Source: JAGLHV01 sp023132075 [NCBI: bacterium]
Lineage (GTDB): Bacteria; CBDUZB01; JAGLHV01
Reading direction: 5' to 3'
DNA: 12,119 bases
NCBI GenBank assembly: GCA_023132075.1
Contig: JAGLYT010000018.1
Coordinates: 1-12,119 of the forward strand
The position numbers and the translations under genes were made by a program. The notes below the pieces were generated by a model. It did no database searches, was not told the origin of the DNA, and saw only the letters and a program-made list of their open reading frames with translations. This document shows positions 3,767-8,109 of the stretch, in pieces (within the stretch, counting starts at the first letter, position 1; each line of letters begins with the position of its first letter).

Positions 3767-3838
3767 ACCCTTCCCCTCCATTTTTTTACTATTTGCCACT
3801 TGTAATTTCTTATCTTTTGTTTTTATCTTTTATTTTTT

Positions 3839-3887
3839 AACCAATAAAACCAATCTAAACCAATTCAACTGTCTTTTAACTGTCTTT
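3839..3887. repeat. composite dispersed repeat, copy 1 (hisA-hisI spacer)
   Basis: On the plus strand there are three AACCAAT units at 9-10 base spacing (3839, 3848, 3858), then two AACTGTCTTT units (3867-3876, 3878-3887). The same order and near-identical units occur at 6805-6855. This copy begins 8 bases after the hisA stop. The rest of the spacer (3767-3838) is T-rich on the plus strand and holds the hisI ribosome-binding site. Confidence 0.8.
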
Positions 3888-3894
3888 AATCAAT

Positions 3895-4681: not shown

Positions 4682-5305
4682 TTAAAGCTTCCCTTTTGTC
4701 GAGGGAATTCCTTTTCTCTTAGGATTATAGGCAACCGCTTTTGATAATGCCCGGCCAAAAGCCTTAAATATAGCCTCAATTAAATGATGCATATTCTTCC
4801 CTGACCTGATTATTCGAATATGCAAAGTAATCTTCGCATTAACACAAAAAGCTTTAAAAAATTCCTCTATTAATTGAGGATCGAATTTAATAATTTGTAT
4901 ATCTTCTGCTTTATAAAAATCCCTTAAACAATCTATTTCACATCCCGGTCTTCCGCTAATATCTATTACCGCCTGAACCAAAACCTCATCCATCGGCACA
5001 AAAGAAGAAGCAAAACGCTCAATCCCTTTCTTATCTCCCAATGCTTTGAACACGGCCTCTCCCAACGCTATCCCAATATCTTCTACCGTATGATGGTCAT
5101 CCACTTCTGTATCACCCACCGCTTTAATCTGTAAATCAAACAACCCGTGTTTAGTAAATAATTCCAACATATGATTGAGAAAGGGTACAGGGGTTTCTAT
5201 TTTGTATTTTCCTTCCCCATCCAGATTCAGGATTAAATTTATCCGGGTTTCTTTAGTTACTCTTTTTATTCTTGCTACTCTTTTTGTTTTTGTTTTGCCC
5301 ACCAT
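4682..5305 (-). CDS. hisB: imidazoleglycerol-phosphate dehydratase
   Basis: HisB dehydrates imidazole glycerol phosphate to imidazole acetol phosphate using paired Mn ions. This is the monofunctional form of 207 residues, without the histidinol-phosphatase domain. Motifs are KRVTKET (14-20), FLNHML (42-47), DDHHTVED (69-76), MDE (105-107), HHLIEAIFKAFGRAL (173-187) and the C-terminal IPSTKG. All expected metal-ligand histidines and glutamates are visible. N44 replaces the Asp usual in F-[FL]-D-H-M-L, but the adjacent H45 ligand is kept. The start overlaps hisD by 53 bases. GGGAGGG lies only 2 bases before the ATG, so the next codon, GTG at 5302, is an equally good start. hisA follows after 40 bases; the hisH gene often found between them is absent. 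Confidence 0.96.
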   Translation of the reverse strand: MVGKTKTKRVARIKRVTKETRINLILNLDGEGKYKIETPVPFLNHMLELFTKHGLFDLQIKAVGDTEVDDHHTVEDIGIALGEAVFKALGDKKGIERFASSFVPMDEVLVQAVIDISGRPGCEIDCLRDFYKAEDIQIIKFDPQLIEEFFKAFCVNAKITLHIRIIRSGKNMHHLIEAIFKAFGRALSKAVAYNPKRKGIPSTKGKL

Positions 5306-6527
5306 TCCCTCCCTTTTCCTGCTTTGTTTTCAAACTGATTTCCTCCCCAGAACCAATTAGTCTTTCTTTCACAGAATTCATATGCTCTTTCAATCCTTCC
5401 ATTTCCGCCAACTTAAGGATATCACGGCTACATTTTTTTAATGCTTCTTTACTATAAAAAATAAGGCTGGTTCTCTTCATAAAATCATAGACAGAAAGTC
5501 CGGAAGAAAACCTTGCTGTTTTCCCGGTGGGAAGAGTATGAGAAGGACCTGCAAAATAGTCTCCCAAAACTACCGGGGAATACTCACCTAAAAATATTGC
5601 TCCTGCATTTTTTATTTTGAGCAGCATTTTTTCCGGATTTTTAGTTAAAATTTCCAGATGTTCAGGAGCTTCCTGATTAATAACTTTTATTGCCTCATTT
5701 AAATCTTTTACTTTAAAAAAATTAATCTGTTTCAAGTTAAAACCGTTTTTGATTTTTCGAAGCTGAGTCTGTACTTTTTTAATTAAATATGCAGAAGTAG
5801 TAACCAACCCTGCTTTGGCATTCCGGTCATGTTCCAGTTGAGCTAAAAAATCCGAAATTATATAATCACAATTTGATGACTGGTCGGCAAGAATCATTAT
5901 TTCGCTGGGACCGGCTAACATATCAATTCCCACTTCACCAAAAAGCATTTTTTTAGCACAGGTTACATAAATATTTCCCGGACCTACAATTTTATCTACC
6001 CGTGGTAAAGTATCCGTACCATAAGCAAGGGCAGCAATTGCCGGAACCCCTCCAACCCGATAAATCCGGTCTACACCGCAAATATCCGCGGCTACCAATA
6101 CCGCCGGAGTTAAATTGCCCGGGGGAGAAACCATAATTACCTGAGAAACACCGGCAACCTTCGCCGGCAAAACATTCATTAATACACAGGAGGGATAAGC
6201 ATATTTTCCCCCGGGAATATATACCCCTACTTTTTCCAATGGCTGCCAGATATCCCCCAAAAGAATTCCCTTTTCATCGTTGTACCAGCTTTTGATTCTT
6301 TGCCTTTTATGAAAACTTTCAATATTTAATTTGGCTTTTTTCAGTGCTGTGATAAAACCTTCATCAACTTGCTTATAAGCATCCTTGATTTCCTTCTTTT
6401 TCACTAATAACCTTTCCGGGCGCAATTTTACTTTATCAAATTTTTGAGTATAAAAACAAATTGCTTTATCGCCTTTTATTTTTACCTCTTCAATAATTTT
6501 TTTAACCTCTTTTTCTATTTTATCCAT
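5253..6527 (-). CDS. hisD: histidinol dehydrogenase
   Basis: HisD performs the last two steps of histidine synthesis, oxidising L-histidinol to histidine with two NAD+ in a zinc-dependent reaction. Family landmarks are clear: VGVYIPGGKYAYPSCVLMN (100-118), PRVDKIVGPGN (175-185), DMLAGPSEIMILAD (202-215), Q230 and H233 in LAQLEHD, the catalytic pair E289-H290 in APEHLE, D323 in GDYFAGPSHTLPT, and H382 in LKEHMNSV. Comparison with E. coli HisD (Q259, H262) suggests about 29 residues are missing at the N-terminus. An in-frame stop seven codons upstream rules out a longer start in this frame. The ribosome-binding site is weak (GAGAG). At the C-terminus, about 30 extra Lys/Asn-rich residues follow the normal family end and are read from sequence shared with hisB (53-base overlap). 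The enzyme is probably active, as all listed residues are present, but the truncated N-terminus leaves some doubt. Confidence 0.93.
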   Translation of the reverse strand: MDKIEKEVKKIIEEVKIKGDKAICFYTQKFDKVKLRPERLLVKKKEIKDAYKQVDEGFITALKKAKLNIESFHKRQRIKSWYNDEKGILLGDIWQPLEKVGVYIPGGKYAYPSCVLMNVLPAKVAGVSQVIMVSPPGNLTPAVLVAADICGVDRIYRVGGVPAIAALAYGTDTLPRVDKIVGPGNIYVTCAKKMLFGEVGIDMLAGPSEIMILADQSSNCDYIISDFLAQLEHDRNAKAGLVTTSAYLIKKVQTQLRKIKNGFNLKQINFFKVKDLNEAIKVINQEAPEHLEILTKNPEKMLLKIKNAGAIFLGEYSPVVLGDYFAGPSHTLPTGKTARFSSGLSVYDFMKRTSLIFYSKEALKKCSRDILKLAEMEGLKEHMNSVKERLIGSGEEISLKTKQEKGGNGGQNKNKKSSKNKKSN

Positions 6528-6581
6528 AAAAACACTCTCTAAACTTTATTTTTTGTCCTTGTCTTTTTTCTTTTGCTATGA

Positions 6582-6604
6582 GCCATTCGCCATTTGCCAT
6601 TCGC
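6582..6604. repeat. heptamer tandem array GCCATTY, 3.3 copies
   Basis: Three consecutive 7-base units (GCCATTC, GCCATTT, GCCATTC) are followed by GC on the plus strand. They lie about 55-75 bases upstream of the hisD start in the transcribed direction. Confidence 0.85.
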
Positions 6605-6609
6605 AATCT

Positions 6610-6633
6610 TTTATCTTTATCTTTATATTTATA
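6610..6633. repeat. hexamer tandem array TTTATC/TTTATA, 4 copies
   Basis: Two TTTATC units are followed by two TTTATA units with exact 6-base periodicity. The array directly follows the heptamer block at 6582-6604. Confidence 0.8.
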
Positions 6634-6637
6634 TTTT

Positions 6638-6672
6638 GTCTATCATCTGTCGTCCATCGTCTATCATCTATC
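6638..6672. repeat. heptamer tandem array RTCYRTC, 5 copies
   Basis: The five units are GTCTATC, ATCTGTC, GTCCATC, GTCTATC and ATCTATC, each differing from the consensus RTCYRTC only at purine/purine or pyrimidine/pyrimidine positions. The 7-base period is not divisible by three, so it does not encode a periodic peptide. Confidence 0.85.
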
Positions 6673-6732
6673 GTATGTGAACTGTCCTTTGTCTTTTTCT
6701 TTATCTTTTGCCTTTGTCTTTAGTTCTTTAAC

Positions 6733-6764
6733 TTTGTGCCTCTGTGCCTTGATGCCTTTGTGCC
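6733..6764. repeat. octamer tandem array ending in TGCC, 4 copies
   Basis: Four units with exact 8-base spacing occur on the plus strand: TTTGTGCC, TCTGTGCC, TTGATGCC and TTTGTGCC. The TGCC half is invariant and the first half varies. Confidence 0.85.
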
Positions 6765-6804
6765 TGTCTTTATCTGTGTATTTATTTCTGTCTTTTACTT
6801 TTCT

Positions 6805-6855
6805 AACCAATCTAAACTAATATAACCAATTCAACCGTCTTTATTAACTGTCTTT
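6805..6855. repeat. composite dispersed repeat, copy 2 (overlaps murA end)
   Basis: On the plus strand there are three AACYAAT units at 9-10 base spacing (6805, 6815, 6824). Two AACYGTCTTT units follow (6833-6842 and 6846-6855). The same modules occur in the same order at 3839-3887. The last unit covers the final murA codons and the TAA stop. Confidence 0.8.
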
Positions 6856-8109
6856 ATCTCCCTCTCTCCTTATTTCCGCACCTAACTGCCCTAATTTTTT
6901 TTCCATTGATTCATATCCGCGGTCTAAATGAAAAATATTACTAATAGATGTTTCTCCCTCGGCAATCAACCCGGCTAAAACCAGAGCGGCCGAAGCACGC
7001 AAGTCAGTAGCTCTCACAGGAACCCCGCTTAATTTATCTACCCCATTAATTACTGCCAAGTCCCCTTTAACTCTAATATTAGCACCCATACGTTGCAATT
7101 CCGCTACATGCATAAACCTATTTTCAAAAACCGTTTCGGAAATAATGCTTTCACCCGGGATGACACTCATAAAAGCCATCCACTGTGCCTGCATATCCGT
7201 AGGGAAACCCGGATAAGGGGATGTATTAATATCTACCGGCTTCAAATTTTCAGACGCACTTACTTCCATTGTACTATCATCAAATTTTATTTCCACCCCC
7301 GATTCTTTCATCTTTGCTATTACTATCTCTAAATGTGTAGGATTTACGTTTAATATTTTTATCCTCCCCCGTGTAAGCGCCGCTGCAAGCAAATATGTCC
7401 CGGTTTCAATCCTGTCTGGAATTACCAAATGCTCAACTCCATTTAATTCTTCTACCCCATGAATTTCTATAATATTTCTTCCTGCATTAAAAATTTTCGC
7501 TCCCATCTTGTTTAAAAAAGAAGCTAAATCTATAATTTCCGGTTCACAAGCTACATTCTCTAAAAAGGTAGTTCCTTTCGCCAGAACAGCAGCCATCATT
7601 AAATTTTCCGTTGCGCCAACACTGGGAAAATCTAAAAATATTTTTCTCCCTTTAAGTCCTCTTTTAGCCGACAAATGAATAAACCCTTTACGAATACTTA
7701 TTTCTGCACCTAGTTTTTTAAAACCATCCAAATGTAAGTTTATCGGCCGGGAACCTATGGCACAGCCCCCGGGCAAAGAAACCTTAACTTTTCCATAACG
7801 AGCTAAAAGCGGTCCCATTACTAAAACAGATGCTCTCATTTTACAGACTAAATCGTATGGTGCTTCCAGACAAATATTCCCTGAAGAGGATACCCGAACC
7901 CGATCATCCTCCCTTTTTATTGTTTTTCCCAAATGTGTCAGCAAAGAAATAATAGTTTTTACATCATACAAATAAGGCACACAAGTTAAAGAACACAATT
8001 TATCAGTTAATAAAGTCGCCATTAAAATCGGCAAGGCAGCATTTTTCGAACCGCTTATTTTTATTGTCCCTTCTAATCTTTTTCCTCCGTTAATAATTAT
8101 TTTATCCAT
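6844..8109 (-). CDS. murA: UDP-N-acetylglucosamine 1-carboxyvinyltransferase
   Basis: MurA transfers enolpyruvate from phosphoenolpyruvate to UDP-GlcNAc, the first committed step of peptidoglycan synthesis, in the cytoplasm. The 421-residue protein spans both inside-out alpha/beta domains. Key residues are in place: K22 and N23 in SGSKNAALPI, R92, the catalytic C116 in GGCAIGSRP, D305 in FPTDMQAQ, R331 in ENRFMHV and R397 in DRGYESM. Cysteine, not aspartate, in the active-site loop predicts fosfomycin sensitivity by the family rule. The 35-base gap after prmC contains no clear ribosome-binding site near the ATG (only AGAAAG about 17 bases away), so initiation may be weak. The last codons and the TAA stop lie inside a dispersed intergenic repeat (6805-6855), described separately. 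Confidence 0.97.
   Translation of the reverse strand: MDKIIINGGKRLEGTIKISGSKNAALPILMATLLTDKLCSLTCVPYLYDVKTIISLLTHLGKTIKREDDRVRVSSSGNICLEAPYDLVCKMRASVLVMGPLLARYGKVKVSLPGGCAIGSRPINLHLDGFKKLGAEISIRKGFIHLSAKRGLKGRKIFLDFPSVGATENLMMAAVLAKGTTFLENVACEPEIIDLASFLNKMGAKIFNAGRNIIEIHGVEELNGVEHLVIPDRIETGTYLLAAALTRGRIKILNVNPTHLEIVIAKMKESGVEIKFDDSTMEVSASENLKPVDINTSPYPGFPTDMQAQWMAFMSVIPGESIISETVFENRFMHVAELQRMGANIRVKGDLAVINGVDKLSGVPVRATDLRASAALVLAGLIAEGETSISNIFHLDRGYESMEKKLGQLGAEIRREGDKDS

Follow-up and report, generated by a model that had tools for sequence, protein, structure and literature searches.

A probable mosaic of dispersed tandem-repeat phrases in the murA-hisD spacer of a JAGLHV01 bacterium

The window analyzed here is the whole of a 12,119-nucleotide stretch of JAGLHV01 sp023132075, read on the forward strand. 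On its minus strand murA (6844-8109) lies upstream of hisD (5253-6527), and the two genes are separated by a spacer of 316 bases (6528-6843). An earlier note on this DNA had described five short tandem arrays in the spacer, with units of 7, 6, 7, 8, and 9 to 10 bases, and these are indeed present. TRF returned arrays of period 7 (GCCATTC, 3.3 copies, 6582-6604), period 6 (TTTATA, 4.5 copies, 6610-6636), period 7 (TCTATCA, 4.9 copies, 6639-6672), period 6 (CTTTGT, 5.7 copies, 6687-6721), and period 8 (TTGTGCC, 4.1 copies, 6734-6765). The array of 9- to 10-nt units at 6804-6836 has no TRF row, its motif having been located by pattern at 6815-6830; a sister copy at 3839-3864 does have one.

In the sense of the genes, on the minus strand, the order is A motif, B element, linker words, C phrase, purine words, E array, hexamers, F array, and hisD leader. 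The A motif (6830-6859) is AAAGACRGTT in two copies, the first overlapping the last codons and TAA stop of murA, and the stop codon itself sits within repeat sequence (AAAGACAGTTAA). The last murA codons and stop differ between the sister species (6840-6860 in the window, 7800-7860 of locus L056) because they are placed in this repeat sequence. The B element (6804-6836) consists of 9- to 10-nt units, ATTGGTTnn(n)ATTRGTT, and is genus-specific, dispersed, and found mostly after stop codons; across the genus, RACRGTT occurs within 30 nt upstream in 40 of 63 B arrays. The C phrase (6727-6771) is a dispersed element of 45 nt, AAAGACA-GGCACAAAGGCATCAAGGCACAGAGGCACAAAG-TTAAA, built as an octamer array with one broken unit. 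Beyond it come purine linker words of period about 6 (AAAGAC, AAAGAT, and AAAGG, 6686-6726; TRF rows 6686-6745 and 6687-6721), the E array of a degenerate heptamer (GAYRGAY, 4.9 copies, 6639-6672), a hexamer array (AAATAT/AAAGAT, 6606-6636), and the F array of the heptamer GGCRAAT (3.3 copies, 6582-6604), the last three all found by TRF. In the hisD leader (6528-6588), the spacer aligns with the sister species like coding DNA, by blastn and by global alignment. The spacer holds at least five unit families, with further ones in the genome and no single dominant unit. A second spacer of this kind, hisA-hisI (3800-3894, minus strand), carries an A-B element directly after hisA, where the sister species instead carries a D phrase.

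Repeats with periods of 6 to 13 cover 151 of the 316 spacer bases by TRF, a value reached by none of 500 dinucleotide shuffles (mean, 6.5; maximum, 53), and the lag-7 autocorrelation is 0.44, compared with 0.332 ± 0.024 in shuffles. The plus strand of these arrays is rich in pyrimidines and the sense strand is 71% purine, as had been proposed from the sequence. Folding is no better than in shuffles on either strand (z = 0.07 for the sense strand and +1.76 for the other), in agreement with the expectation of a largely unstructured transcript. In the genus at large, not every array family keeps to one strand. A general purine bias of array spacers was rejected; in the window's genome such spacers have a mean purine fraction of 0.617 (n = 12) versus 0.568 in other spacers (n = 63), but this fails in the nearest relative (0.547, n = 16, versus 0.577, n = 96). 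Between 6400 and 7000, 4 promoter-like sites were counted, against 1.5 ± 1.3 in shuffles, and a scan of the same interval gave no terminator-like site. Rfam gave no match in the window at gathering score.

The window's genome (G000) was compared with two congeners, G001 and G002, of which G002 is the nearest relative; all three are drafts, analyzed with simple ORF calls. The units do recur elsewhere in the genome. The spacer has at least 64 blastn matches at E ≤ 10, itself included, a minimum because 40 of the 126 first-look candidates were scored. TRF repeats cover 6.2% of sampled spacers in G000 (117 spacers, part of them chosen for holding hits) and 6.4% in G002 (163 spacers), compared with 0.5 to 1.5% in five shuffles of each and 1.1 to 1.3% in coding DNA, so that short tandem units of 5 to 11 nt are over-represented in the sampled intergenic DNA of these two genomes. 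In G001, cover is 2.7% (64 spacers), with shuffles at 0.9 to 2.2%. The longest exact stretch common to the spacer and another site is 45 nt, AAAGACAGGCACAAAGGCATCAAGGCACAGAGGCACAAAGTTAAA, in G001, followed by one of 42 nt in G000 and one of 41 nt in G002, all three being copies of the C phrase, while 60 shuffles of the spacer gave a longest exact match of 20 nt in the same 1.13 Mb. Exact matches of 16 nt, present in 164 of 200 shuffles, were rejected as evidence of copying, and only long matches count. The F array has an exact 23-nt copy, AAAGATTGCGAATGGCAAATGGC, at another locus of the same genome, and the E array occurs at three sites in the sampled DNA of the three genomes.

Two families show that it is fixed phrases that recur. 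A 33-nt core of the C phrase, with up to 3 mismatches allowed, has 3 copies in G000, 7 in G001, and 17 in G002, and the ATC of its broken unit (GGCATC) is kept in all 27. A regular octamer at this point amounts to only two mismatches, and genus copies of that form would therefore have been detected. Octamer hits in four other genomes lacked the ATC in 31 of 31 cases, and a fifth genome had no hit. By eye, the ends of 17 aligned C copies are sharp and their flanks differ, with no terminal inverted repeats or target duplication seen; this alignment would drop copies without CATC or TATC, of which the core search shows none. The D family has the heptamer GTCNAYA, with no strict match in the window's spacer and a strict match in its G002 counterpart. 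Among 52 D arrays of at least 3 units, one four-unit phrase appears in 13 and two others in 6 and 4, so that three fixed phrases make up 23 of the 52, and one array has grown to 13 pure units (L435). Recurring fixed phrases together with a 13-unit array indicate that copying and slippage both act on D.

As far as was searched, with relatives beyond the genus taken from the same domain only, the phrases discussed appear to belong to the genus. B has 49 matches in G000, 28 in G001, and 19 in G002, and none of 383 other genomes has more than 3; D has 36, 9, and 335. A cross-phylum D family was rejected, since the pattern occurred in 6 of 113 genomes outside the genus and its reversed control in 11 of 113. 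Counts within the genus are lower bounds, as B sites cluster near draft contig ends: 11 of 31 in G000 lie within 300 nt of an end, where 12.5% would be expected (p = 0.0009; 2 of 33 sites were left out for missing contig extent).

The contents of array spacers differ between sister species. G002 is collinear around the window at 91 to 92% DNA identity, but in its murA-hisD spacer the arrays are D, H, and others. In blastn between the two, 6589-6848 is unaligned save for two overlapping pieces of array sequence of 45 to 46 nt, and alignment resumes at 6588, where the 61 bases adjoining hisD do align. The G000-G002 comparison covered 13 orthologous spacers, of which nine align, one has zero length in G002, and one (L088, 3429-3535) aligns partly. 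The two array spacers among them (murA-hisD, and L077 3495-3924 versus L109) give many-gapped alignments and differ in contents, with coding flanks 91 to 93% identical. Nine G000-G001 spacer pairs included no array spacer of these families. At hisA, both sister species share TAAATTGATTAAAGACAGT and then part, one into an A-B element and the other into D; the breakpoint lies within AAAGACAGT, a word that opens two different phrases. Orthologous sites carry a D phrase instead of the A-B element at hisA and at three other genes, and unit number also differs between species (L125 versus L205).

A wider set of orthologous gene 3' ends with arrays comprised 16 rows and 13 distinct ends, with arrays on both sides in 12 of 13 and on one side only in L006/L200. 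Many of these loci had been fetched for their arrays, and the fair subset is therefore the seven whose second member was fetched regardless; an array family was present in 7 of 7 and was a different family in 4, the murA pair being counted as sharing D by a loose pattern only. The baseline is an array at 32 of 602 gene ends (300 nt). One origin offered for the spacer in the earlier note was that several repeat families had accumulated at a single tolerated site, and the data support it: the families are dispersed genome-wide, and orthologous sister sites hold arrays, often of other families.

Two further features of array spacers were observed. On a 19-kb contig of G002 (C7, locus L063), 8 of 12 spacers listed between 1127 and 17150 contain AGAGCNN and GATACAG heptamers or their complements, as if the neighborhood shared array families of its own. 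Palindromic elements (CCGCCTTA..TGGCGGAC and CCCCCTTTGAAAAAGGGGGTTAGGGGGATTT) stand beside or inside tandem arrays at L006 versus L200, L081 (6377-6814), and L125 (1993-2637), as if arrays served as landing sites for them.

We propose, with a probability of roughly 0.6, that the spacer is a mosaic of dispersed phrases that are copied ready-made, swapped for one another, altered in unit number by slippage, and restricted to the zone from a stop codon to the following leader. Each phrase would be about 25 to 60 nt long and itself a short degenerate tandem array. Ready-made phrases would be copied from other spacers into the zone after the stop codon, presumably by template switching or short-homology recombination between spacers, and slippage would then add or remove units locally. 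Selection would set the limits of the mosaic, at the stop codon on one side and at the leader of the following gene on the other.

The position of the arrays bears on this last step. The upstream gene is known for 49 of the 57 spacers with B, taking the first B array in each, and B is in the sense orientation to that gene in 44 and antisense in 5. Of the 44 sense arrays, 34 start within 45 nt of the upstream stop codon. Proximity to the next start, again taken as 45 nt, was found for 1 of 33 B arrays and for 0 of 15 D, 0 of 12 C, and 0 of 5 H arrays. Part of this placement has a simple explanation, in that bases can vary freely only after the stop codon and before the following leader; this leaves the one-way orientation of B unexplained. 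C is sense to antisense 17:6, D shows a mild sense bias (25:13), H is even (10:10), and the R heptamer, found mainly on one contig, is mostly antisense (1:7). The differing orientations of D, H, and R make a single messenger-level rule unfit for all families. Stop-codon supply was rejected as the cause, stops in all three frames being found in 14 of 39 A-B elements in the sense direction and 20 of 39 in antisense. A reversed A-B element would give a transcript of 24% C and 4% G, and we infer that selection on the messenger may keep B in the sense orientation, the reversed form being a C-rich, G-poor, unstructured stretch of the Rho type. Both G000 and G002 have Rho, which the search did not find in the G001 draft; the link between Rho and B orientation is a guess.

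The same placement and the 44:5 orientation could instead mean that A-B is a functional 3'-end element, acting on the transcript through ribosome release, decay, or protein binding, or serving as a phased DNA-binding array, for which units of 9 to 11 nt, near one helical turn, would be suited. REPs less than 16 nt from a stop codon are reported to lower translation, in the available text of PMC12306157. However, no RNA structure is seen in the murA-hisD spacer, few gene 3' ends (the 32 of 602) carry any array, and D stands in place of A-B at hisA and the three other genes. We regard a functional element as unlikely, if the best placed of the alternatives to a mosaic of copied phrases.

Growth in place is the next alternative, and also a rather improbable one as a full account. 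Arrays would arise by local slippage from different seeds, with recurring units reflecting a polymerase preference, for example for 7 nt. Period 7 is the commonest TRF period in sampled spacers of both G000 and G002, and in most genomes heptamers outnumber the other classes, with slippage proposed as the cause (Mrazek 2007, as cited in the available text of PMC4679880). A remote 1.0-Mb genome, G067 (L210-L216), has spacers with many heptamer arrays of unrelated sequence, plus an octamer, so that array formation itself is common. A fixed composite, TCTAAATACGAAACTCGAAACTCGAAACA, recurs in its spacers. Slippage also accounts for the differences in unit number and the pure 13-unit array, and to this extent the earlier note's other idea, repeated local duplication of different seeds, was borne out. 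It fails for the exact phrases of 41 to 45 nt that share a broken unit at unrelated sites, of which local duplication is not the source. The broken unit and the fixed unit order of C and D at different sites in three species speak against growth in place, as does, for B, the restriction of the element to the genus. Local duplication therefore looks like a secondary process in the spacer. The E and hexamer arrays, of which no long copies turned up elsewhere, may be of local origin.

Movement by an encoded enzyme, a transposase such as a Y1/RAYT type or reverse transcription, is less probable still. The enzyme search covered two families. Y1 transposase (PF01797) gave 13 matches in G002, 3 in G000, and 0 in G001, the same order as the D counts of 335, 36, and 9, and we take this parallel across three genomes as a lead only. 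G001, at 94% completeness, has no Y1 match yet holds 28 B, 9 D, and 7 C copies, and B counts do not track Y1 counts. Reverse transcriptase (PF00078) was rejected as the copier, having matches in G002 only and none in G000 or G001, both of which carry phrases. Last, a decayed gene or chance low-complexity DNA is hardly credible: an 80-aa ORF crosses the spacer on the plus strand and a run of 84 codons in the G002 spacer is free of stops, but that sister spacer has no ORF of 90 aa or more and is another mosaic, the 80-aa ORF has no Pfam match, the arrays occur elsewhere, which favors a mosaic as the earlier note had held, and no shuffle of 500 reaches the repeat coverage.

For the mosaic of copied phrases, then, the joints between phrases offer a hint of mechanism. 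The word AAGACA immediately precedes 9 of 17 C phrases and 12 of 44 D phrases, compared with 55 of 9,277 background positions, and it is the frequency of AAGACA at joints that led us to infer template switching or short-homology recombination. The word is missing at that position in 8 of the 17 C phrases and 32 of the 44 D phrases, and it could be an ancestral phrase edge rather than a joint formed by homology. No donor-recipient pair or insertion event was caught, and copying rests on the shared variants. A more tentative and somewhat doubtful extension is that gene 3' ends in this genus would be a swap site where tiny mobile phrases, each a microarray and often AAGACA-initial, enter behind stop codons and replace one another through short-homology template switching, with no dedicated transposase and with A-B in one orientation only.

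The octamer illustrates how far unit sequence can mislead. Arrays of (AGGCACAR)n were found in at least 120 stretches of named genomes from many phyla, and also in 10 viral stretches. A pan-bacterial octamer family was nevertheless rejected; a 20-mer pattern occurred in 14 of 386 genomes (145 matches) and its reversed control in 6 of 386 (22 matches), and neither matched the three members of the genus. We treat much of the cross-phylum octamer as probably of independent origin, although the excess over the control leaves room for a weaker form of the shared-family idea. Four octamer words gave no match in a limited literature search. Among 85 octamer arrays in the listed loci of other bacteria, several of which come from the same genomes, 22 lie inside predicted ORFs of at least 150 aa, some perhaps spurious. 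The other 63 have an upstream gene on the same strand in 36 cases and on the opposite strand in 20; 28 of the 36 same-strand arrays lie within 60 nt after the upstream stop codon, and 5 of 33 lie within 60 nt of a same-strand next start. An inverted relative (..GTGYCTYTGTG..) occurs within 150 nt of 20 of the 63 arrays outside long ORFs (L230-L309).

Intergenic tandem repeats in bacteria are usually ascribed to slippage in place, whereas here whole arrays, marked by a shared broken unit, travel as phrases, and sisters with flanks 91 to 92% identical hold different phrases in the same spacer. This points to an unusually high rate of movement of very short DNA segments at gene ends. If the joints were formed by short homology, such spacers would record template switching at gene 3' ends in nature and would allow it to be measured. 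The octamer, at 14 versus 6 of 386 genomes, is in addition a warning that the sharing of a short repeat unit among phyla is no proof of relatedness.

Several known repeat systems resemble parts of this picture. The STRR of cyanobacteria are tandem heptamers in spacers, a likeness of description and not of sequence. The small dispersed repeats (SDR) of cyanobacteria, which Elhai reportedly described in 2008, are said to be some 20 bp long and possibly mobile. Going by the descriptions in papers that cite SDR, the present phrases, being dispersed and fixed in form, may be akin to them; each dispersed phrase here is itself a tandem microarray, with a joint word shared among phrases. REP, BIME, and REPIN elements are, in the available text of PMC3116915 and PMC12306157, short dispersed extragenic elements, many of them near gene 3' ends and combined in mosaics. 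REPs have palindromic cores, whereas the present phrases do not, the murA-hisD spacer showing no structure beyond shuffles and palindromic elements being separate ones in other spacers; in addition, G001 has phrases and no Y1 transposase match. The TAACTGA repeats of Beggiatoaceae (MacGregor 2015, PMC4679880) are likewise short intergenic heptamer arrays, sporadic, possibly mobile, and in some cases overlapping stops, but as far as the available text describes them they have one unit and lie mostly just upstream of starts, in contrast to several families after stops here. There is a likeness also to the GGGNATC heptamer SSRs of Xanthomonas and Nostoc, for which the same preference for positions after stop codons is published (Rehm 2015, PMC4692102). 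By the available text of that paper, these have one G-rich, quadruplex-suited unit type and 83% of their sites are kept between two species, while here several families share a spacer and contents differ between sisters. Heptamer repeats near stop codons are thus already known, and the phrase mosaic is a variant of them.
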